A stretch of DNA of 64,000 bases, taken from NCBI GenBank assembly GCA_016124755.1, contig WGNA01000006.1:62001-126000 (forward strand). Direction: 5' to 3'. Source of the DNA: Bacteroidota bacterium. GTDB lineage: Bacteria > Bacteroidota > Bacteroidia > NS11-12g > UBA9320. Each line of letters begins with the position of its first letter. Position 1 is the stretch's first letter. Below the pieces are notes generated by a model, which saw only the letters and a list, made by a program, of their open reading frames with translations, was not told the DNA's origin and did not search any database. This document shows, piece by piece, positions 2,484 through 61,600 of the stretch. The position numbers and the translations under genes were made by a program.

Positions 2484-5174
2484 CTACTGAACGCTCAGTT
2501 TAAATACAGAAAAAGAATTATCCGTACCGATAATCTTCACCCAATAGTTTCCGGAGGAAAGTTCCGGTAACCGCATTTCGACTTTCGAAGAATACGGTTT
2601 CGTCCTTAGTATTTCCTTACCGGTAATCTCATAAATAATAATTTCCCCAATGATCTTTTCCCCATCTAAAGTTAATGTTTCATTCACACCGACCGGATTC
2701 GGATATACTTTGAAACCGTCTTTCGAAATGTTATTTATTCCAACAGCATCAATTGTTATTTTTTTGGTAACCGTATCGATGCAACCCCGGAAACTTTCAA
2801 CAATTAACATCGCGTCATACGTTCCATCAACTGCGTAATAATGTTTTACATCGGTGCCCATCAGCGTGTCACTTCCATCTCCGAAGTACCAGATATAATT
2901 GCCCTGACCAATCAAACGCGAAGCAAAGTCAACATTTCTCCAGGTGATTTGATAATCGAAATTGGCATCGGGCATTAGTAGCCATTCCACATCGTGTTTG
3001 TATGGCCCCGAAACACAACCTTGATTGTCGATCGAATATTGAATGTGGATGTTATCGGTAATCGGAGCAACCACTAAATCTTCTCCCGAAGCCAGAAGTT
3101 TCTCACCATCTTCCGAGTACCAGTTCACAATTCCAACGTCGGGTTTTATGTGTAAAGTCGGAACAAATCCGTCGCAGGCTGTTTTGTCTAACACGCTTTC
3201 GGTAACGACCGGGTAGGTGATGTTATTAATATTTAAAGAATGACGAATACTGTCTCGGCAATTTCCCTCAAAAGGCTGGAGATAATAGGTTTGATTTTGA
3301 TGAATGCTGTCAAAAGTTCTCATCCAGCCGGTAAAGATTGGATTTCCTCCGGATTCCGATGAAAACCATTCAACTTCTCCAAACTGATTTGCCTGATTGA
3401 ACAATAGTGTGTCGCCTGTACATCCGCTCAGGTCGTTGAGTTTAATAATTGTCGGGAAATGTTGAACGTCAACGGAAATCGGTAATCTGCTACTCGCACA
3501 ATTACCATTGTAAGCATCAACGTACATGTTAAATTTTCCCCGCGTCTTGGGTGTGAAAAGAAAACTGTCGGCGGTGGATTTTACAGAACCTCCGGCTGCA
3601 ACGCTGTACCATCTCAACTGATTCGAAGAAGAAGATGCTCTGAGATAAAACGGATCACTCAACAGACAAACAACTGTGTCGTTGCTCACGGTTGGTGCCT
3701 GAGGTGCAAAATCATTACTCACAAAAGCAGAAACTTTAACCCGGCTGTTGTGTGTGCATTGTCCGTTAAAAGCCTGAGCATAAAAAAATGTATCGTGATT
3801 CAATGGCCCGACTTGATAAACACTACCCGTGTAGATCGGCAAAATGGTGGTAGAATCTTCAAACCAGCGAACTATACCATAATCCGGATCTGCCGTTAGA
3901 TTGGCTAATGAATTAAGACAAATTGAATCGTTATGGATTTCCGGCTCCCCCGGTGTTTTAGTGACTTCAATGATATACGACTTAAGTTTAGTAGAACACT
4001 GCTTGTTAATTGATTTAGCATACAGTGTATCGTTTTGTTCTAATGCTGATGCGGATTGATAAGCCGGACCCGCAAGAAATGCAGTGTCGAGTGGGGACCT
4101 ATACCACGAAACAAGGCCAGAAGTGAGCGCCATCAGGTTTCCATAATTACCCGAACAGATATTTTTATCTCCGGAAAAATTGATATCACTCGGTTGAAAG
4201 GCGATGTCTTTATAGGTAGTGTCGATGCAACTGTAATTTCCTCGATACGTATATATCGTGCTGATCAAACGAACTCTTGCATTGGTGGGAACGGTGTATA
4301 CATTCTTTCCTTCTACCGAATAATAACTTGCATTGTTGCCATAATAATCCCAACGGTGACAATACAGATCGAGTCCGTACATGATGTATCGGTTGTAAAC
4401 CTTGCTGAAATAAAAGTCTGAAGATTCGTTCTTGAACTTTACGGTATCGCCAACAGTATAGCAATCCTTGAAAGAGAAATTATTGGAGAGTTTGTAATTT
4501 ACAAATGGTTCAAGCACAACATCACAGTTCAAAGGAACACCGCCAATATTGAGATCATCAAACTGATACCAACGACCACCGATTGAACCACATCCCAGAT
4601 TCTCATTATCACCATCTCCGTTCTGATAACTGTTTGTAACTACCGCGACCCGGTTGGTGTCGTTCGAGACCAGAACAATAATAAATGGTTTGGTAGTAGT
4701 GTACGGTGTTGAAAAAACCGCTCGCTTCTGAAGTTTGGTTAACACACCTCCACCAAATGTTGAATCGATAAAAATGGTGTCTGTTCTAATGGCATTTCCG
4801 TACGGCAAACTATCGGCTCCGGCTTCATACAATTGAGCATAAACAGCAACAACCGCTTTACTCTGCATACTTTGCCATGCGTAAAAATCGAACCCACTAA
4901 CCGTTACTTCACCCGGTGCTTCGAAATACTGACCAAGTCTGTAACCCGTCGAAATGTTGATCCCGGTGTATGCAGAAGCTTTGTAACGGGCGTAATCCAA
5001 TGTGTCACCCTGACAAGCGATGAGGGTTCCGCCGCCTTTTTTACCGAGTTTTTGTTCGATCGAATTATTAACGGTATTCAAATCGTCCTTTAATTTAACA
5101 TGAGCAGGAACGAATTGTCCAAAGGCTTTTCCAAACAGCAATAAAATCAGTACAAGGGTCGACGCTTTTTTCAT
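2484..5174 (-). CDS. T9SS type A cargo protein with Ig-like and PKD domains
   Basis: A secreted 896-residue protein. It has a signal peptide (MKKASTLVLILLLFGKAFGQ), an N-terminal region of about 330 residues without a recognised family, then several repeated Ig-like modules of about 80-90 residues in which Cys and Trp recur (patterns such as VRWFEDS and RWYSVAAGG). A PKD-like module follows (WYFGDGSDT), and then a C-terminal sorting domain from about residue 825 that begins VYPNPVGVNETLTL. That last domain is the type A signal recognised by the type IX secretion system, which removes it while anchoring or releasing the protein at the surface. The repeats suggest a structural or adhesive role; no catalytic site is seen. 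Confidence 0.9.
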   Translation of the reverse strand: MKKASTLVLILLLFGKAFGQFVPAHVKLKDDLNTVNNSIEQKLGKKGGGTLIACQGDTLDYARYKASAYTGINISTGYRLGQYFEAPGEVTVSGFDFYAWQSMQSKAVVAVYAQLYEAGADSLPYGNAIRTDTIFIDSTFGGGVLTKLQKRAVFSTPYTTTKPFIIVLVSNDTNRVAVVTNSYQNGDGDNENLGCGSIGGRWYQFDDLNIGGVPLNCDVVLEPFVNYKLSNNFSFKDCYTVGDTVKFKNESSDFYFSKVYNRYIMYGLDLYCHRWDYYGNNASYYSVEGKNVYTVPTNARVRLISTIYTYRGNYSCIDTTYKDIAFQPSDINFSGDKNICSGNYGNLMALTSGLVSWYRSPLDTAFLAGPAYQSASALEQNDTLYAKSINKQCSTKLKSYIIEVTKTPGEPEIHNDSICLNSLANLTADPDYGIVRWFEDSTTILPIYTGSVYQVGPLNHDTFFYAQAFNGQCTHNSRVKVSAFVSNDFAPQAPTVSNDTVVCLLSDPFYLRASSSSNQLRWYSVAAGGSVKSTADSFLFTPKTRGKFNMYVDAYNGNCASSRLPISVDVQHFPTIIKLNDLSGCTGDTLLFNQANQFGEVEWFSSESGGNPIFTGWMRTFDSIHQNQTYYLQPFEGNCRDSIRHSLNINNITYPVVTESVLDKTACDGFVPTLHIKPDVGIVNWYSEDGEKLLASGEDLVVAPITDNIHIQYSIDNQGCVSGPYKHDVEWLLMPDANFDYQITWRNVDFASRLIGQGNYIWYFGDGSDTLMGTDVKHYYAVDGTYDAMLIVESFRGCIDTVTKKITIDAVGINNISKDGFKVYPNPVGVNETLTLDGEKIIGEIIIYEITGKEILRTKPYSSKVEMRLPELSSGNYWVKIIGTDNSFSVFKLSVQ

Positions 5175-5261
5175 AAGGAGATGAATGGTAAAATTATAAA
5201 AAAAGAGTCAACCTTCAATGCATGAAAGAAGGAGAAGGTGGCTTGTAAAAAAGGATTTGAA

Positions 5262-5663
5262 TCAGCTTTCCGGAGTACCGTCGGTAATCCACTTTTCAAT
5301 CTTGGTGATGGTAGTATCCGCCAGTTTGGGACTTCCTTCGGGCATGGCTGAATATCCGCTTTGGTGTTTTATCGCTCCGAGAATTCTGCCTAATGAAACA
5401 AAAGCCACTGCATCGCTGTAACTGGCAAGACTGCCCACTGAAGAGTTTTTGTTGTGACAACCGCTTATTGCACAACTTTTATCCAGAATAGCTTTGATAT
5501 CGCTGTTGTACGTAATTTTAACCACCGGTGTTGTATCTTTCTTGGTGGTATCTGTTGTCTGCGTTGGTGTAGGATCTTCTTTTTCTTTACAGGAATCGAG
5601 AAGAATGGGCGCCACAAACATGGCGATGAGAATAAAAAGGGGTAATTTTTTTAGCATATCCAT
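5262..5663 (-). CDS. Cytochrome c-like lipoprotein
   Basis: A 133-residue lipoprotein. The signal peptide ends in LLDSC with the lipidated Cys at residue 25, followed by a Thr/Pro/Lys-rich linker. A heme-attachment-like motif, CAISGCH, lies at residues 64-70; it has four rather than two residues between the cysteines, as in the 'planctomycete-type' cytochrome c families. A Met (MPEG, about residue 107) could be the distal ligand. This points to a periplasmic electron carrier or a domain that accompanies secreted enzymes. It lies 87 bases upstream of the T9SS cargo gene on the same strand. Heme binding is inferred, because CX4CH is not the classic CXXCH. Confidence 0.72.
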   Translation of the reverse strand: MDMLKKLPLFILIAMFVAPILLDSCKEKEDPTPTQTTDTTKKDTTPVVKITYNSDIKAILDKSCAISGCHNKNSSVGSLASYSDAVAFVSLGRILGAIKHQSGYSAMPEGSPKLADTTITKIEKWITDGTPES

Positions 5664-5754
5664 AAGTTTCCTTGTGCGGCAAATATGTTTTTAAAACCCA
5701 TTAGTTGAGACATACTTTTTTATTGTACATGTTAGAAGTTCGTAAGATTTGGAA

Positions 5755-5783
5755 TAAAAAAAGCCCGCTGTTGAACGGGCTTT
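5755..5783 (-). terminator. Rho-independent terminator of tRNA-Cys
   Basis: On the minus strand the arms AAAGCCCG and CGGGCTTT pair around an 8-base loop and are followed by a T-rich run. It lies just downstream of tRNA-Cys on the same strand. Confidence 0.85.
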
Positions 5784-5788
5784 AGTTG

Positions 5789-5859
5789 AGGTCTCGAGCG
5801 GATTCGAACCGCTGTACGAGCTTTTGCAGAGCTCTGCCTAGCCACTCGGCCACGAGACC
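5789..5859 (-). tRNA. tRNA-Cys (GCA)
   Basis: Read on the minus strand, acceptor arms GGTCTCG and CGAGACC pair, the anticodon stem GAGCT/AGCTC encloses the loop CTGCAAA (anticodon GCA), and the T arm contains GGTTCGAATCC. It is 71 nt to the discriminator base. CCA is not encoded. Confidence 0.96.
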
Positions 5860-5957
5860 CTTTTTCAAAAAGGAACCGCAAAATTAATTTTTTGTTTGAA
5901 TGGCCAATGAGAAAATTAATCTGCCGAATTTTTTTCAATTGCCTGCGACTGCCGATA

Positions 5958-5965
5958 TAAGTTTG
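5958..5965 (+). promoter_or_regulatory. Probable Bacteroidota -7 promoter box (TAAGTTTG)
   Basis: TAAGTTTG matches the Bacteroidota -7 consensus TAnnTTTG and lies 5 bases before the GH3 start codon. Transcription would therefore begin at or beside the ATG, giving a very short or absent leader. No good -33 TTTG is seen at the usual distance. Confidence 0.45.
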
Positions 5966-5970
5966 CATCC

Positions 5971-7458
5971 ATGACGATCCTCTCTGCTCTTGCAAATTGG
6001 TACACTAAAAAACTGATCCGGCGTGCTGAAAATGCCGTTTCAGAACAGGAAAAAACCTTCCGGTATCTGATGTCAAAACTTTCCCAAACTGCTTTTGGAA
6101 GAGATCATGGCATTCACGCAAATACCGGGTATCAGGAGTTTTGTGAGAAAGTTCCGGTACGGGATTACGAAGGTCTCAAATTGTATTTCGACAGAATTGC
6201 CAACGGAGAAAGCGATGTTTGCTGGCCGGGTAAACCTGAATATCTGGCAAAAACTTCCGGAACAACTTCCGGGGCCAAGTATATCCCCATTACCAAAGAG
6301 TCGGTTCCCAATCACATCAACTCCGCCCGCAATGCCATGATCGAATACATGGCGCAAACAGGCAACTCAAAATTCATTTTTGGTAAACTCATTTTTCTTT
6401 CCGGCAGCCCGACGCTCTCTGAAAAAAGCGGAATAAAAACCGGAAGACTTTCGGGAATTGTAAACCACCATGTTCCCGGATATCTCCGCAGAAACCAGAT
6501 GCCGAGTTGGGAAACGAATTGCATTGATGATTGGGAAACCAAGGTGAAAACAATTGCGCAGGAAACCATTGTTGAGAACATGACGCTGATCAGCGGAATT
6601 CCTCCATGGATTCAGATGTACTTCGATGTTCTTCACGAAATGTTGGGTGGAAAAAGGATCAAGGAGATTTTTCCGAATCTTCAGCTACTAATTTATGGCG
6701 GTGTGAATTTTAGTCCGTATGAAAAAAAACTCATGGACAGCATCGGAGGCGAAATCGATACGATTGAACTGTATCCGGCATCCGAAGGTTTTATCGCTTA
6801 TCAAAACGATCAGAACGACCGGAGCATGAAGTTGCTGACCTCGGAAGGAATCTTTTATGAATTCATAAAACTCGAAGATTATCACTCCGAAAATCCGAAG
6901 AGATATTCGTTGAAAGATGTGGAAGCGGAAGTCAATTATGCCATAATCTTAAACAGCAATGCCGGACTCTGGGGATATTCCATCGGAGATACAGTAAAGT
7001 TCACTTCGGTGAATCCGTACAAACTGGTTGTCACGGGCAGAGTGAAACATTTTATTTCAGCATTCGGGGAACATGTGATAGGAGAGGAGGTTGAATTTGC
7101 ATTGATGTCGTATGCGAAAGAAGGCGGAATTGGCATAACGGAATTTACGGTTGCACCTCAGGTGAATCCTGCAGAAGGAGAAGGAATTCCGTATCACGAA
7201 TGGTTTGTTGAATTTGAAAATGAACCGGAAAATCTAAGCGATTTTGCCAATGAAGTGGATCGAAGACTTCAGAATAAAAACATCTATTATAAAGATCTGA
7301 TCACAGGAAAAGTGTTGCAACCCTTGATCATAAGGTCGTTGCCAAAAGGATCATTTATCAACTACATGAAGTCGCAGGGAAAACTCGGCGGACAAAACAA
7401 GGTGCCGCGTTTGTCGAACGACCGGAAAATTGCCGACTGGTTTTCCACCATCCAGTAA
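5971..7458 (+). CDS. GH3 auxin-responsive promoter family protein
   Basis: A 495-residue member of the GH3 family, relatives of the adenylate-forming (ANL) acyl-amino acid synthetases first known from plants. The ATP-binding loop TSGTTSGAK is at residues 95-103, and YPASEGF, the second adenylate motif, is near 270. Bacterial members are common in Bacteroidota, but their substrates are unknown, so the acyl acceptor cannot be named. The length is slightly shorter than plant GH3 proteins (about 600). The gene begins the plus-strand run that continues with rseP and hscB. Confidence 0.88.
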   Translation: MTILSALANWYTKKLIRRAENAVSEQEKTFRYLMSKLSQTAFGRDHGIHANTGYQEFCEKVPVRDYEGLKLYFDRIANGESDVCWPGKPEYLAKTSGTTSGAKYIPITKESVPNHINSARNAMIEYMAQTGNSKFIFGKLIFLSGSPTLSEKSGIKTGRLSGIVNHHVPGYLRRNQMPSWETNCIDDWETKVKTIAQETIVENMTLISGIPPWIQMYFDVLHEMLGGKRIKEIFPNLQLLIYGGVNFSPYEKKLMDSIGGEIDTIELYPASEGFIAYQNDQNDRSMKLLTSEGIFYEFIKLEDYHSENPKRYSLKDVEAEVNYAIILNSNAGLWGYSIGDTVKFTSVNPYKLVVTGRVKHFISAFGEHVIGEEVEFALMSYAKEGGIGITEFTVAPQVNPAEGEGIPYHEWFVEFENEPENLSDFANEVDRRLQNKNIYYKDLITGKVLQPLIIRSLPKGSFINYMKSQGKLGGQNKVPRLSNDRKIADWFSTIQ

Positions 7459-28042: not shown

Positions 28043-28087
28043 AAAAAAAAGGGAGTGGCCAAAAATGATTAGCGACAAGCCACTCCC
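28043..28087 (-). terminator. Strong terminator of the GldLM-like operon
   Basis: On the minus strand GGGAGTGGC pairs with GCCACTCCC around a 19-base loop and is followed by T8. It closes the three-gene operon 28.1-32.5 kb. Confidence 0.9.
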
Positions 28088-28103
28088 CGTATCTAAGCGA
28101 AAG

Positions 28104-30329
28104 TTAGAATCTGAATTTTCTTGTCAGTGTTACTCCAAAATAAGAGTAACCGTCATTTTTAGCACTGGAAGACCTTCTTGTTCCGGGCTTTATTCCATTG
28201 GGATTTGAAAGCTGAACGGCAATAGTGCCCAAATCCGGATTGGCCTTTTCCATATATTCATCGGTCTGAAATTTTCCTGTACTTACATCGTCCAGATAAT
28301 CGGTAAAGACTTTATTATAGGTATAGGAAACACCGATGGTAGTGTATTTATTAAGATGTTTTGTGAGCTTGATTCCCATTGGAATTCCTACTCCGTATTT
28401 ACTGTAAGGTGTGGCCTGACCTTCGGTTCTCAATGGACGGAGATCGTACCATCGTCCTTCGTTGTTTATCTGAGATTGCGGATTAAAATAATATCCGGTA
28501 ATACCGATAAAGGCAGAAGGAACAATACTCCGCATTTTGCGGTATCGACTGAGTCGGTACTCACCAATAATTCCCAGATCGTAAATGGTAGTTCTTACAG
28601 AAAGTCCTCTGGCGAAGTTGGTTCCCCGTTTCGCTCCGAGAATTGAAGACCTGTCGTCGGCACCGGCTATCACCAAGTTATTCTGGGCAATCTCAATGCG
28701 GATTCGTTCGGTGAAGTTGTAACCAAACCGGAACCCGAGATTAGGCCGAAGGTTGTTTAGAGATATCGCCACATTGGTGTAGGCCAAGTCTCCGAAATAA
28801 AGAGTAGTTCCGCCAAATACGGCAACGTCCCAGTATTTTGAACGCCACATGGTGTCATCCGGATCCAGTTCCGGAACTACATTTTTTAAGGTGGTATCCC
28901 TCAACTCGTCTACGGTTGGTAACGGGAATTCACCTTCATCATAAAGTCTGGGTGTTGTTTGCTCCACTCTTGGAATTTTGAGGAAGCTTTCGTACCCGGA
29001 AAGAAACACATTATTCTTGATCAGGAAATTTTTTAAACCCACGTGTACATCGGGAACCATAAAGCCATTTTCGTCGACCAGACCCTGAACCATGATGTAA
29101 CCGTTAGGTCGCATCTTGATAATACGGTCGTGAATCGAAACCTGAACCTTTTGATTCATGTTCGAAAATTCGAGTTTGTGGTTAAGCGATTCGTAGCGGA
29201 GTGTGTCGTCCATCAGATAGATGTAGGTCACCTGAAATTTATCGCTAACTGTCACCGGACGGTTGGCAATCATTTCAATCTGGCTTGTGTATTCATTCAC
29301 TGTTACATCCTTGTGCAGATCATCAATGCGAACACCATCAACCGCAATTTTATAAATATGTCCGTTTGTAGTTGAATAGGGTTTTAAAGGAAGGTCGTTA
29401 TATAAAAGGAGTGGAGCTCTTTGAGATGAAATCATTTGTTTCATCATTTCATCCAGATCTTTAGTCGCGTTTTCACCAAAGAAATTTCCATTTACATCCA
29501 AAAAATCGGCAGATCCTACGGCTGTAATATTTACCGGAAAAAATTCTACCGTATCTTCCAGTACGAGGCTTCCGTAATTAAAACAGAATGAGTTCCCTTT
29601 TATTATCGGCTCCATTCCTCTGGTAAGCACAGCATTTTCATTCAGGAAAACCGGAGTAGTAAAAATACCGTTTAATGAACGTCCGATGAATTCGTTTCTG
29701 GAGAAGACATTGTCCTTTAAAACAAGTTTCAGCAGATCTGCTGTGGCTTCAGCGAACATCACACTTCCACTGTTATTCGAAAATGTGTTGCCCTGAATGA
29801 GTAAGGTAACGGGATCGTTGGTTAACACTTTGTCGAGTTCCCGGAACTCAATATAAACTCCGTTCTCGATGTGATGTTGAAACTGACTGTTTTTGATTTC
29901 AACATTTCGTCTCGACCAATTCTTCTCAAAGAGAAACGGTTTTAAAACACCTTCGAATCGGGTATAATTTACTTTTATGTTTTGCTGATTTGCTTCGCTT
30001 ATTACGAAACCGACTCCAGGCTGATCCGCTTTGTAGTTTTTAAATTCAATGAATTTATTTGGAGCACCTTGCAGGTCAAGTCCGCCTTTTATCTGAATCG
30101 CGGCTTTCGGATAGAACAAAATTGTTTTGCCGGCGCCAAGTGTGAGAGTCGCATTTTCTTCCACCACTACTTTTCCTTTCACGATAATCGTGTCGGCTGC
30201 CAGAGAAAGATCTCGGTTGATAGTAGCCGGCAATATTTGCCTGGTGGTTTGCGCATTTGCTGCAGTGAAACCCAGCGTGATCAAAGTTATCACCCAGGCC
30301 CTTATCTCTGTTTTTAAATACCTTTTCAT
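28104..30329 (-). CDS. Outer-membrane protein: beta-helix plus PorG/DUF6089-like barrel
   Basis: A 741-residue exported protein (signal peptide to AANA, residue 26). Residues 40-290 look like a right-handed beta-helix: short repeated strand-turn units such as VEIKNSQFQHHIENGVYI, LLIQGNTFSNNSGS and LVLKDNVFSRN. Residues 320-430 look like Ig-type strands. From about 499 a barrel begins with WDVAVFGGTTLYFGDL and NLGFRFGYNFTERIRIE, the pattern of DUF6089/PorG proteins, and it ends in Phe (FGVTLTRKFRF). PorG is the T9SS outer-membrane protein that holds the PorK-PorN ring, so this is a likely outer-membrane partner for the GldL/GldM-like pair encoded just upstream. The domain assignments rest on my reading of sequence patterns. 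Confidence 0.75.
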   Translation of the reverse strand: MKRYLKTEIRAWVITLITLGFTAANAQTTRQILPATINRDLSLAADTIIVKGKVVVEENATLTLGAGKTILFYPKAAIQIKGGLDLQGAPNKFIEFKNYKADQPGVGFVISEANQQNIKVNYTRFEGVLKPFLFEKNWSRRNVEIKNSQFQHHIENGVYIEFRELDKVLTNDPVTLLIQGNTFSNNSGSVMFAEATADLLKLVLKDNVFSRNEFIGRSLNGIFTTPVFLNENAVLTRGMEPIIKGNSFCFNYGSLVLEDTVEFFPVNITAVGSADFLDVNGNFFGENATKDLDEMMKQMISSQRAPLLLYNDLPLKPYSTTNGHIYKIAVDGVRIDDLHKDVTVNEYTSQIEMIANRPVTVSDKFQVTYIYLMDDTLRYESLNHKLEFSNMNQKVQVSIHDRIIKMRPNGYIMVQGLVDENGFMVPDVHVGLKNFLIKNNVFLSGYESFLKIPRVEQTTPRLYDEGEFPLPTVDELRDTTLKNVVPELDPDDTMWRSKYWDVAVFGGTTLYFGDLAYTNVAISLNNLRPNLGFRFGYNFTERIRIEIAQNNLVIAGADDRSSILGAKRGTNFARGLSVRTTIYDLGIIGEYRLSRYRKMRSIVPSAFIGITGYYFNPQSQINNEGRWYDLRPLRTEGQATPYSKYGVGIPMGIKLTKHLNKYTTIGVSYTYNKVFTDYLDDVSTGKFQTDEYMEKANPDLGTIAVQLSNPNGIKPGTRRSSSAKNDGYSYFGVTLTRKFRF

Positions 30330-30344
30330 AATAGTAGTAGTTGT

Positions 30345-32036
30345 TTATTGAACGGTATAGGTTAGAGGGGCAACATCAATGTCTTTCCCCAGAGAGGACT
30401 TAGCCTTAATGTTGCTAAAGATAAGTATATCTCCGGTTTTTACCTTTTTTAAAGCATCCAGAGAAACCGTGTTTAATGAATTTCCTGAGTTGGAAATGGG
30501 TTGGAGAATAGATGTATGGTTGTTATAAATCACCGTGAAATCAAAGTGAGAAACATAAAACTGCTCACTTACGAGATACTCCTGTGATTCGATCTGAACA
30601 TTCTTCACATTTCCAATTTCTTCAACTGTCAGCACGCTTCCGTTCGATTTGCCGAGAATCACAGCCGACGGTGTTGATAGTTCCCGAACCACAAATTGCT
30701 TTTCGGCGACCTTCACAAATCCGTATGGCATCTTGGCAAATATTTCAACCAATACAATCCCGGGACGATAAACACGAGCATAGAAGTTACTGCCTTTTTT
30801 CAGGATCTGTCCTTCGGAGATTTTTGCCGTAAGACCTTCCGTATCTTCAAATTCCGATGTTTTTACATTGAGGCTATTGTCAATTCCGACGTAGAGCGTC
30901 CCCATCTGATTGTTTTGCAGAACAGGATCGAGATCCATCACTTTAATGAACTTGTCGGTTGACTTATCACCGCTGTTAAACTTAATGCTGTAATATCCTT
31001 TAACCTTTGGAACAAACATGAAGTTCCCGGGTGAAGTCATGGTAACGTTTTCAATTTCTCCGTCCGGGTTGCGAAGTCGCACACTCACCGGCATTGTGTT
31101 TTTACCGTTCTCGTAATTCACATGAAAGCGAACCGGTTTTCCAACAGCATATACCGAATCCGAAACCGATTCAACACTTAAAAATGCAGGACTTTTGGGC
31201 CCTTTAGGTGTTTCGGGAGTTTCTACTTTTTTAGGTGTTTCTTCTTTAGGAGTTTCTTTAGAAGTTTTGCCATTGGGATTAGTGGAGGCTTTATACGATT
31301 TAATGTGTTCCAGATTGCCTTTTAGCTCATTGTTTTGCATAATGATTTTGGCAATTTCCTCCGGAACAACTCTGGGTTGAATAGAAGCAACCTGCTCAAT
31401 AATTTTACCCACCGTGAAAGTTCTTGCTTCTTCAACACGGCCTTTGAAGTGAGACAAATTCAGCAAGGCAACGTTCAACGGATTTTTCTTGAAGTAAAAG
31501 TGTTCGATTGAAACAAAATCACCATCAGATCTTCGCATCATTTCAGGTAATGGCATTATAGAATCCAGAATGGCAGCATCTTCTGCAGAGAGAAGTTCGA
31601 TGAGATCTTGTTTATACTTTCTCAGACTGGAAACGAGATTGGTCGCATTTCCTTCAGAGATCATATAAGAATTGGATGGGTTTTCACTTTTACCGTTTTT
31701 CAGATAATCGTACTTGTTAAAACCGCTTCTCTTGATCAGTTCCAGTTTCATTTCTTCGATGTTCTGAATCTGAGCATCGGAGAGTTCATCAACAGCTATA
31801 ATCTTGAGTTTGGTTTTGTTAAAGAGTTCGGCATCCTTCTGAACATAGCTCAACACGAGCATATTGTATTTTGAAGAATGTCTCTCAACTTCATTGCACA
31901 AATGGTTTAATGAGGTGTTCGTGATATAGGTTGTGTCAACAAAGTCGGAAGGGATAAACGAAAAGAGGAAAGCCAGAAAAATCAGATAGAGCAGATTGAT
32001 GGCCTTCTGACGGAGTTTTTGAGACTTACTTTCCAT
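30345..32036 (-). CDS. GldM-like periplasmic motor/stator protein
   Basis: A 563-residue GldM/PorM-type protein. The N-terminus LRQKAINLLYLIFLAFLF matches the GldM transmembrane helix, and Arg9 sits exactly where the functionally important Arg9 of Flavobacterium johnsoniae GldM lies. The C-terminal domain has the GldM pattern: MGTLYVGIDNSLNV, then VVRELSTPSAVILGKSNG. Between the N-terminal part and the C-terminal domains lies an unusual Lys/Pro/Glu-rich linker (residues 255-290, KEETPKKVETPETPKGPK). The start is ATG 32036, four bases after the GldL-like stop. With its partner it would form a proton-driven inner-membrane rotor. It is a paralogue, not the canonical gene, because no gldK or gldN is adjacent. 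Confidence 0.85.
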   Translation of the reverse strand: MESKSQKLRQKAINLLYLIFLAFLFSFIPSDFVDTTYITNTSLNHLCNEVERHSSKYNMLVLSYVQKDAELFNKTKLKIIAVDELSDAQIQNIEEMKLELIKRSGFNKYDYLKNGKSENPSNSYMISEGNATNLVSSLRKYKQDLIELLSAEDAAILDSIMPLPEMMRRSDGDFVSIEHFYFKKNPLNVALLNLSHFKGRVEEARTFTVGKIIEQVASIQPRVVPEEIAKIIMQNNELKGNLEHIKSYKASTNPNGKTSKETPKEETPKKVETPETPKGPKSPAFLSVESVSDSVYAVGKPVRFHVNYENGKNTMPVSVRLRNPDGEIENVTMTSPGNFMFVPKVKGYYSIKFNSGDKSTDKFIKVMDLDPVLQNNQMGTLYVGIDNSLNVKTSEFEDTEGLTAKISEGQILKKGSNFYARVYRPGIVLVEIFAKMPYGFVKVAEKQFVVRELSTPSAVILGKSNGSVLTVEEIGNVKNVQIESQEYLVSEQFYVSHFDFTVIYNNHTSILQPISNSGNSLNTVSLDALKKVKTGDILIFSNIKAKSSLGKDIDVAPLTYTVQ

Positions 32037-32040
32037 GGTA

Positions 32041-32541
32041 TTAGAATCTATAGTTCTCAAATTCTCTCAATTTCTCATTCGCATTTGCGATTTTGATCTT
32101 GAGACTGTTGATCTCCTTCTGATAGTCAAGCGTTGAATCATTTACGATTTCATAATTCGATTCAAGCTTTTCAACATACTTCGTGAGTTTTTGAGTGGCG
32201 TTGTTTAATACATCCACCGAGTTGTTCAATGCCAGAATCGATTCCATCATCTGGCGAATCTGTTGCTCGTGGGTAATCTCAACTCCATCGGCAGAAATAA
32301 TGGGTTCCTCCGCTTCTGCTTTTTCTCTGGATAATTGAGGGAAGACACGGTCCCAATGGAAAACCTTGGGAACCTGTACGGGTTGTGACCCTGAAATAAT
32401 AAAGATCAGAGCCTCGCCGATCAGTCCGATCACGAACAATATGTCCGCGCCATTCCAACCAACAAATTTGAACAGAGCTGCAATAAGAATAATCGCTGCT
32501 CCGAGTCCATAAAAGAAGTTTAGTAAATCAAACTTTCGCAT
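32041..32541 (-). CDS. GldL-like inner-membrane motor protein
   Basis: A 166-residue GldL/PorL-type protein. Two membrane helices (residues 12-27 and 33-50) are joined by a short turn in LFKFVGWNGADILFVIG. Helix 2 carries Glu43 in GEALIFIISGSQPV, the conserved glutamate type that binds protons in GldL. The cytoplasmic tail is a coiled coil (about 95-160). Canonical GldL usually has LFKxxHWPGA, so Gly replaces the His here. It is the first gene of a minus-strand operon with a GldM-like gene. Known GldLM pairs form 5:2 proton-powered motors for T9SS and gliding. Confidence 0.85.
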   Translation of the reverse strand: MRKFDLLNFFYGLGAAIILIAALFKFVGWNGADILFVIGLIGEALIFIISGSQPVQVPKVFHWDRVFPQLSREKAEAEEPIISADGVEITHEQQIRQMMESILALNNSVDVLNNATQKLTKYVEKLESNYEIVNDSTLDYQKEINSLKIKIANANEKLREFENYRF

Positions 32542-32787
32542 GTGTGATAAGTTTTAAAATGTTGTCGCTGTTTAACTAATCACATCAGGTTTTTCAAACG
32601 GTATGCCACCGGATTTTGGGTGACTCAATGTTTATGTTAGGCTGTAGTATCTACAAATAGGTTTTTAGGTATAAAGTGTTGAAAAATAGTATTTTAAAGA
32701 ACGTTAATCGCGATGTTTCGTTTGCTGATCCATCGAATCGCAGGTTAAATGCTAATCCGGAATATTCCCATTATTAGAAACATTCCG
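32542..32787. other. Promoter region of the GldLM-like operon
   Basis: A 246-base AT-rich gap upstream of the GldL-like start. No clear TAnnTTTG with proper spacing was found; TACCGTTTG on the minus strand near 32600 is the nearest approximation. No gene is seen. Confidence 0.35.
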
Positions 32788-59662: not shown

Positions 59663-61600
59663 ATGCGCCGACCGTTTTTACAAATCTTAATCGTCTTTCT
59701 CATGATTCCTCTGGCAACCAGAGGTACGCATATCATGGGAGGTGATTTGTATTATCACCACATTACCGAAGACAGTTTCCGGATTACCATGCGGTATTTT
59801 GTCGACTGTGTAAATGGGAACGCCAGTGCGATCAGTTCGGATAAAATTGCCTATTTCGGTTTTTTTGATGCGAAGACTAATTCGTTGATCACCACACATT
59901 CGGTTGTGAGAACCGGACCGGTGAAGGTTTCCGAAATAAATTACAAGTGTGTAACCAATTTACCGAATGCCTGTGTAGATCAATACGAATACACATTTAC
60001 CAAAAAGATTGATCCGGGCGAAAACGGAATTATCGTTTCGTTTCAACGCTGCTGTAGAAACTATACAATTTCGAACCTCTACGATCCCGGAGGCACCGGC
60101 ATGACGTTGATGGCATTTATTCCTCCCAAAGGCGTGGTGAACGACAACCCGGTTTTTAAATCTTTGCCTCCTAATTTTTTGTGTAATGATGCCCCGTTGG
60201 TTTTTGATCATTCCGCCACCGATGCCGATGGCGACTCTTTAGAATACGAACTATACAATCCGTTTCTCGGAGCGTCTTCTCTGGATCCGCAGCCGTCGCA
60301 ACCCAGCCGGCCTCCGTATGCCCCTGTCGCCTATTTATCACCCTACAATGTAATGGACATGATGGGAGGTAAGGAGCTTTTAAAGATTGATCGCAGCACT
60401 GGATTGCTGACTGTTTTTCCGAATGAAGAAGGTCAGTTTGTGGTCGGAATTAAGGCAATCGAATATCGCGACGGAAAGGTGATCGGTATGTCGTATCGCG
60501 ATTATCAGTTTAATGTTTTGTATTGCAAACTCACAGTGAAAGCAAAATTTGAAGTGCCGCAGATTACCTGTAAAACCACTTCGGTTGCATTTGTTAATTC
60601 GAGCGATTCGTCGGATGTTTATCATTGGGATTTTGGAATTGGTAATCTGGATTCAGACACATCAAACCTCAAAAATCCGGTATATACGTATTTGAAATCG
60701 GGTGATTACAGCGTAAAATTAATTGCCCAAAAAGCAAATTGTTCCGACAGCGTAACCCATTCATTTTCCATCGGTGGATTGGATATACTGAGTGCCGATT
60801 TTACAGTTTCACCCAATCAAATTTGTGTTGGAGATACCGTATTTATTACAGACAACAGTTCGAAGGCCAGCGATTGGTATTGGAGTTTTAGCGACAACAC
60901 ACCGCTACTTCATAATGTAAAAACCACATTTCATCAGTTTACGGAAGACGGTGATTTCGAAGTTAAATTGCAGTTGTTCGATACGGCGGAATGCACGTTA
61001 AATGATACCGCAACCCGAATAGTTCATGTTATAAAAAGAGCGGTAAAGTCACCTTTATTTTCAGCCGAATCAAACGATGTCTGCCATCCTTCAGCTTTAA
61101 TACTTAACATGCCATCGGAAGAAATTAAGCACTGGAAATGGGAGATTGAATCCGACAGCGGATCGTTCGAAGATCGGGTGACGGTTCTGAAGAAATTTGA
61201 AAATCCCGGAAATTATTTCATACGAATTACCCCGCTCGACACACCCGAATATTGCACGACGTTCCCGGTTCTCGATACATTCCTGTACGTTGAATCGGTG
61301 GAAACACCTGAGGCAAAGGTTACGCTTTATAATATCTACACACCGAATGATGATGGCTTTAACGAATGTTTTTCTCCCGGGCTCGACCCTGCCGCTTGTT
61401 ATTCTATTCGTTGGAGAGTTTACAACCGTTGGGGAGAATTGTTTTTTAAGTCTGATGAAGACGGAGCCTGTTGGAACGGATTGGTGAGGAACAATCAGCA
61501 CGTTGTTCCGGCAGGGACGTATTTCGCACTTTATGAACTAATGGATGAGTCGGGAAAAGAGATTGATTCTATTTCCGGCACCATTACTTTGATCCGATAA
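59663..61600 (+). CDS. T9SS type B cargo protein with PKD domains
   Basis: A 645-residue secreted protein. After a signal peptide (LQILIVFLMIPLATRG) an N-terminal part (about 25-290) opens THIMGGDLYYHHITEDSFRI and has disulfide-prone Cys residues (QRCCRNY). Two PKD-like modules follow (VYHWDFGIGN, then DWYWSFSDN), with YVESVE leading to a C-terminal type B T9SS sorting domain: YNIYTPNDDGFNE, YNRWGELFFKSDEDG, ACWNGLVRN, VVPAGTYFALYEL. ATG 59663 is preferred; GTG 59660 is three bases upstream. A second T9SS client for this window, with a different sorting signal type. Confidence 0.9.
   Translation: MRRPFLQILIVFLMIPLATRGTHIMGGDLYYHHITEDSFRITMRYFVDCVNGNASAISSDKIAYFGFFDAKTNSLITTHSVVRTGPVKVSEINYKCVTNLPNACVDQYEYTFTKKIDPGENGIIVSFQRCCRNYTISNLYDPGGTGMTLMAFIPPKGVVNDNPVFKSLPPNFLCNDAPLVFDHSATDADGDSLEYELYNPFLGASSLDPQPSQPSRPPYAPVAYLSPYNVMDMMGGKELLKIDRSTGLLTVFPNEEGQFVVGIKAIEYRDGKVIGMSYRDYQFNVLYCKLTVKAKFEVPQITCKTTSVAFVNSSDSSDVYHWDFGIGNLDSDTSNLKNPVYTYLKSGDYSVKLIAQKANCSDSVTHSFSIGGLDILSADFTVSPNQICVGDTVFITDNSSKASDWYWSFSDNTPLLHNVKTTFHQFTEDGDFEVKLQLFDTAECTLNDTATRIVHVIKRAVKSPLFSAESNDVCHPSALILNMPSEEIKHWKWEIESDSGSFEDRVTVLKKFENPGNYFIRITPLDTPEYCTTFPVLDTFLYVESVETPEAKVTLYNIYTPNDDGFNECFSPGLDPAACYSIRWRVYNRWGELFFKSDEDGACWNGLVRNNQHVVPAGTYFALYELMDESGKEIDSISGTITLIR

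Follow-up and report, generated by a model that had tools for sequence, protein, structure and literature searches.

To our knowledge, GldLM has been described solely as the motor that powers the type IX secretion system (T9SS) and gliding. In the window, namely the 64,000-nucleotide stretch of Bacteroidota DNA considered here, genes encoding a GldL-like and a GldM-like protein (gldL' and gldM') are followed by a gene encoding an outer-membrane protein (OMP; the partner), raising the question of whether this pair forms a motor separate from that of the T9SS and, if so, what such a motor would drive. A first-pass annotation of the sequence had described three minus-strand genes in close order, starting after a 246-base gap and ending in two terminators. 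Each element of this description was recovered, with the three ORFs lying 4 and 15 bases apart and the gap upstream of gldL' having the claimed length (Table 1). Of the two hairpins behind the OMP gene, both assigned by eye, one was rated as good, comprising a 9-bp stem formed by GGGAGTGGC and GCCACTCCC, a 19-base loop and a T8 tract, and the other, lying further downstream, is weaker and A/T-rich. Both were missed by an automatic terminator scan, since the longest loop permitted in that scan is 8 bases. Behind the operon terminator lies a gene encoding an AsmA-like protein (window:25212-27929), a placement also seen in several genomes of the window's family (f1). In G005, an f1 genome in which the partner gene is missing, an AsmA-like gene directly follows gldM'.

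Table 1. Features of the three-gene operon, numbered from the first base of the window.
Feature	Position	Strand	Description	Basis
gldL'	32041..32541	-	inner-membrane motor subunit, two-helix, 166 aa	PF22827, TIGR03513, residue table
gldL' tail			cytoplasmic, short, coiled-coil	
gldM'	30345..32036	-	periplasm-spanning motor shaft, 563 aa from ATG 32036	TIGR03517, AlphaFold2, Foldseek, tree
OMP (partner)	28104..30329	-	741 aa	NF052316, AlphaFold2, Foldseek, cysteine survey
terminator-like hairpin	28043..28090	-	3' of OMP gene	read directly by eye
upstream intergenic region	32542..32787	.	246 bases 5' of gldL'; probable promoter region	

The T9SS sorting domains earlier noted in the window (2484-5174 and 59663-61600) proved to be real upon profile scanning, and the canonical T9SS motor that they had been taken to imply was indeed found. 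The host genome (4.05 Mb, rated 100% complete) contains one other GldL scoring over the cut-off, encoded on contig C23 in a cluster of two porP-type genes, gldK, gldL, gldM and gldN; the genes of this cluster were named from their sequences, with the cluster then serving as reference for reading the canonical loci of other genomes. The window pair is, therefore, not the sole candidate T9SS motor of this organism. Rather, because a complete gldKLMN set is present elsewhere in the same genome, gldL'M' encodes a second, paralogous motor. As had been claimed, gldK and gldN are absent from the module, both standing beside the canonical gldLM on contig C23. The same duality holds in other genomes containing the triplet, with 15 of 16 encoding a canonical GldL that exceeds the cut-off; in the exception, G020 (84% complete), canonical-type GldM matches were found on contig C112. 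In the seven other triplet genomes in which canonical loci were read, namely, G003, G009, G137, G141, G184, G329 and the genome of L069, gldK, gldL, gldM and gldN occur together. In the canonical cluster of G184 (L219:3103-8121), one additional copy each of gldN and gldM, in this order, comes after gldL-gldM-gldN, and tandem gldN copies are present in the canonical clusters of G137 (L217) and G009 (L223).

GldL' matched PF22827 (1.6e-18) and TIGR03513, where its score of 75.4 bits exceeds the curated cut-off of 68.3. Residues Y11, K25 (in TM1) and E43 (in TM2) of GldL' correspond to Y13, K27 and E49 of the Flavobacterium johnsoniae protein, such that the helix-2 glutamate pointed out in the first-pass annotation is E43. 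By F. johnsoniae numbering, all 14 GldL' proteins retain Y13 and E49, and 13 of them K27. In F. johnsoniae, GldL E49 is essential, being required for secretion and for the conformation of GldM, and E59 is needed for SprB movement and not for secretion (PMC8986121). At the E59 position, the closest relatives of the window protein present Gln, with the residue varying in other GldL' proteins. The canonical His30 is replaced in all 14 GldL' proteins, by Gly in 11 (including the window protein) and by Asp or Glu in three, and is present in every canonical GldL row of the residue table except L221, with row L167 (L167_Lc) corresponding to the module copy of G020 and not to a canonical protein. Given that His30 is replaced throughout, proton handling by GldL' could differ.

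GldM' scored 89.5 bits (2e-25) against TIGR03517, under the curated equivalog cut-off of 180, and of its Pfam domains, GldM_1st and GldM_4th exceeded their cut-offs, with GldM_3rd falling below. The Arg9 previously noted in helix 1 is present and, together with Y17 of the same transmembrane helix, is invariant among relatives. The AlphaFold2 model of GldM' (mean pLDDT 73) comprises the transmembrane helix, a helical D1 domain, a disordered linker (residues 224-283) and three beta domains reaching to the end of the protein. In agreement with the expectation that the predicted structure be GldLM-like, this model, obtained for the GldM' chain alone, matched PorM (7cmg, 3.1e-22) and GldM (6ey4, 1.2e-19) in a Foldseek search, with the GldLM structures 7sau and 7sax also being matched. 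Both the domain order and the fold of GldM are thus kept in GldM', as seen by Pfam and Foldseek.

The two motor copies were also compared phylogenetically. In the resulting tree, which comprised 48 GldM proteins, 14 module copies (drawn from families f1, f32, f36 and f40 and from L069) were split from 34 canonical copies by a single branch with support of 99/98, placing GldM' outside the canonical clade; L069 and L047 form long branches, and their exact places are hence unsure. The canonical GldM proteins of G137, G141, G184 and f1 members group with other canonical ones, and a recent duplication of canonical gldLM as the source of the module was rejected on the basis of the 99/98 split. In a barrel tree prepared by a quick method, 13 fused barrels formed one group distinct from 101 stand-alone PorG-like proteins (SH-aLRT 92). 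As judged from these sequences, GldM' is an ancient, separate clade represented in four or more families of the class, and both trees are compatible with the module having arisen once and its genes having then been inherited, or transferred, together.

As for the partner, assignment as a PorP/SprF-type protein was rejected, no such profile having been matched; instead, the C-terminal half of the protein, as had gone unnoticed in the first-pass annotation, is related to the PorG family (NF052316, 4.5e-17, 62.5 bits, below the cut-off of 130). A sequence search returned no PDB homologue of the partner. Following an N-terminal hydrophobic helix corresponding to a signal peptide, the AlphaFold2 model (mean pLDDT 80) predicts a beta-helix of many short strands (residues ~30-320), an Ig-like domain (~325-437), a disordered linker (~440-498) and eight long strands (499-739) forming a PorG-type barrel. 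The latter matched OmpA-type eight-stranded barrels in Foldseek; the beta-helix was called from the AlphaFold2 secondary-structure pattern together with a sub-threshold Pfam match, with the best PDB matches covering only the barrel. In the established topology of such proteins, a domain found N-terminal to an eight-stranded barrel is periplasmic. As such, the N-terminal domain of the partner would share the compartment in which the GldM' shaft ends.

PorG of the T9SS is linked to GldK, the moving track, through a cysteine in its periplasmic C-tail, and modelling has placed the PorM tip in the cleft separating PorN subunits (PMC12635249). The partner ends two residues past its last strand, leaving neither a periplasmic tail nor a tail cysteine. 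Indeed, this cysteine has been lost more generally, with none of 12 fused barrels presenting one after the barrel (that of L040 contains a cysteine inside the last strand) vs. 62 of 101 stand-alone PorG-like proteins and five of six in the window's genome, these counts coming from related and hence not independent sequences. The window's genome encodes at least six other PorG-like proteins. Six stand-alone barrels of this genome (G000; L146-L151), partly in tandem, map to C39:44203-46017, C4:124741-126458, C14:8388-9143 and C34:42829-43593; five present a cysteine near the C-terminus (e.g., CPKFK or CPRFN), and the C34 copy contains none.

The distribution of the triplet was assessed in f1, among 395 genomes of the class, in a named collection and in a phylum-wide sample. 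Ten further f1 genomes contain gldL'M', with the OMP gene lying directly behind in eight. In one of these eight, G002, the OMP gene is broken into two frames (L041:10991-13196), with the frame break and stops pointing to a pseudogene or, alternatively, to an error in the sequence. In the other two, G004 (78% complete) and G005 (90% complete), gldL'M' stands alone. A search for a beta-helix-plus-barrel protein elsewhere in either genome found none, and relocation of the partner was accordingly rejected. In G004, a convergent gene encoding a 1,229-residue TraB/PrgY/gumN-domain protein (L046:1724-5413) occupies the partner's place. Outside f1, four of the class genomes (G184, G329, G141 and G137) yielded complete or nearly complete partners with the OMP profile, and the named collection yielded a full match in one MAG (L069, CANGDH010000007.1) as well as a partial match located at a contig start (L084). 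In L069, the GldL-like protein (4963-6477) is 504 residues in length, its long C-terminal region belonging to no known family, and a gene for a LuxR-type regulator is found just upstream of its gene.

The module is, therefore, spread across f1, f32, f36, f40 and the named MAG L069, with other neighbors varying between lineages. In much of f1, an upstream aldehyde dehydrogenase (P5CDH-like) gene and other neighbors are common to the genomes; linkage through shared synteny alone was, however, rejected, given that neighbors differ in L042, L141, L143, L144 and L069 with the triplet intact. For all 13 partners with visible upstream DNA, gldL'M' lies directly upstream on the same strand, and for 13 of 15 gldM' genes, the partner lies directly behind, such that the triplet, as anticipated, stays together in other genomes even where its surroundings have changed. 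At the same time, the module is rare, with module-type gldM' appearing in seven and a full or near-full partner in eight of the 395 class genomes. Scores across the class leave a clear gap, with GldM' proteins yielding E-values of 1e-68 or better vs. 1e-32 or worse for canonical GldM. In the phylum sample, module-type gldM' was found in the window's own genome only, and the search for fused partners returned, apart from that genome, only stand-alone PorG barrels. A search of the open-access literature returned no description of the module. Together, these results leave little doubt that the locus encodes a GldLM-type motor module that is conserved, distinct from the canonical one and equipped with an outer-membrane partner of its own. 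The data are compatible with the earlier suggestion that this second motor may serve another purpose.

A variant arrangement offers a hint as to what the motor may contact. The partner of G137 consists of a beta-helix protein lacking the barrel; a 4-base overlap joins its gene to the following one, which encodes a beta-propeller/OmpA protein. At L143:9003-12331 in this genome, the overlapping gene is of the PD40 beta-propeller/OmpA type and is followed by genes for further PD40/OmpA/SPOR and PD40/TPR proteins. In G184, the gene after the module encodes an OmpA-family barrel. The G137 arrangement implies that the constant part of the module consists of gldL', gldM' and the beta-helix, with the connection to the outer layer being exchangeable. 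The fact that the beta-helix remains constant with the motor points to this region as the element upon which the motor would act.

In the working model that we favor, five GldL' copies would surround a GldM' dimer (a presumed 5:2 assembly), forming a second, self-contained GldLM-type proton motor. Proton flow, via the TM2 glutamate and GldM' Arg9, would rotate the GldM' shaft, the tip of which may directly engage the periplasmic beta-helix/Ig region of the operon partner, with the C-terminal PorG-type eight-stranded barrel of that protein predicted to sit in the outer membrane. An outer-membrane protein would in this manner receive force with neither the GldK/GldN track nor the disulfide between PorG and GldK that the T9SS and gliding machines use, presumably so that an outer-membrane or surface component is moved or worked. 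The output could lie in moving or pushing a surface component, in handling a subset of T9SS clients or in working on the envelope. Direct action of GldM' on the partner in the absence of GldK and GldN seems reasonably likely, as does the model as a whole, which is favored by the canonical gldKLMN present in the same genomes, the separate GldM' clade, the single group of fused barrels, retention of the triplet amidst changed neighbors, the conserved motor residues, the structural matches of the models, the missing tail cysteine and the exchangeable barrel in G137. Speaking against the model, His30 is replaced in all GldL' proteins, G004 and G005 contain gldL'M' without any beta-helix partner, and every triplet genome checked closely contains a canonical T9SS cluster, making in-trans dependence on GldK/GldN possible.

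Such dependence lies at the heart of another explanation, whereby GldL'M' would be an accessory T9SS/gliding motor that drives GldK/GldN in trans or powers a sub-population of translocons, with the OMP serving as a variant PorG for a subset of clients. The family membership of the barrel, the possible need for the gldKLMN present in every closely examined triplet genome and the other PorG-like proteins of the host, suggestive of diversified T9SS output, are all consistent with this. Still, the module lacks gldK and gldN, the partner lacks the tail cysteine for linkage to GldK, GldM' scores under the equivalog cut-off, and it forms an old clade of its own and is no recent duplicate; we consider an accessory role to be rather unlikely. 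A decaying or non-functional gldLM duplicate that happens to lie beside an unrelated OMP gene could account for the rarity of the module in the class and for the interrupted OMP gene of G002, yet is contradicted by the intact reading frames, the conserved motor residues and the maintenance of three-gene order in at least four families with different neighbors, and is hardly credible.

Ton and Tol systems combine two inner-membrane motor genes with one outer-membrane acceptor, a layout that the module resembles. By analogy, GldM' might pull on or release the OMP so as to constrict or stabilize the outer membrane or to gate transport, with no track being moved and no secretion taking place. The beta-propeller/OmpA proteins encoded downstream in G137, which could bind peptidoglycan, and the OmpA-family barrel next to the module in G184 would suit such a role. 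However, the Pfam scan revealed no relation to the ExbB/TolQ or TonB/TolA families, and the fold found is that of GldM, an elongated multi-domain shaft, such that an envelope machine of this type appears improbable. This explanation shares the direct-contact step with the model favored here, differing mainly in output. Returning to that model, the chances are about even that the module represents a third use of GldLM, beside T9SS energization and gliding, namely, an independent transenvelope machine in which the GldM' shaft directly drives a barrel-fused beta-helix with neither a GldK/GldN track nor disulfide attachment, and which is inherited across Bacteroidia as a three-gene module.

How GldM rotation is transmitted to outer-membrane proteins is still debated. 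If the favored model is true, that coupling could most simply be studied in this reduced GldLM, which has a single dedicated outer-membrane partner and works without a track, and GldLM motors, like MotAB, ExbBD and TolQR, would have been recruited for more than one job. Relative to the canonical GldLM of the T9SS and gliding, the module retains the GldL fold with Y13, K27 and E49, as well as R9, Y17, D1 and the beta-domain shaft of GldM. It differs in lacking gldK and gldN, in forming a separate old clade, in the replacement of His30 and the shorter tail of GldL', in the disordered linker after D1 of GldM' and in having its own outer-membrane partner. That partner shares with PorG (NF052316) an eight-stranded barrel, family-level sequence similarity and the FTDYLDDVS motif; by contrast, it scores below the family cut-off, is fused to a periplasmic beta-helix and Ig-like region of ~410 residues, lacks the post-barrel tail and its cysteine, and belongs to a group formed by the fused barrels. 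The beta-propeller and OmpA protein whose gene overlaps the barrel-less beta-helix gene of G137 resembles PorE-type (PG1058) TPR/beta-propeller/OmpA proteins in domains alone and has no place in the operon of the window. Finally, as in the Ton (ExbBD-TonB) and Tol (TolQR-TolA-Pal) systems, an inner-membrane proton motor would act on a dedicated outer-membrane partner, yet in the module this would be realized with proteins that present no sequence match to those families and with a shaft of different architecture.
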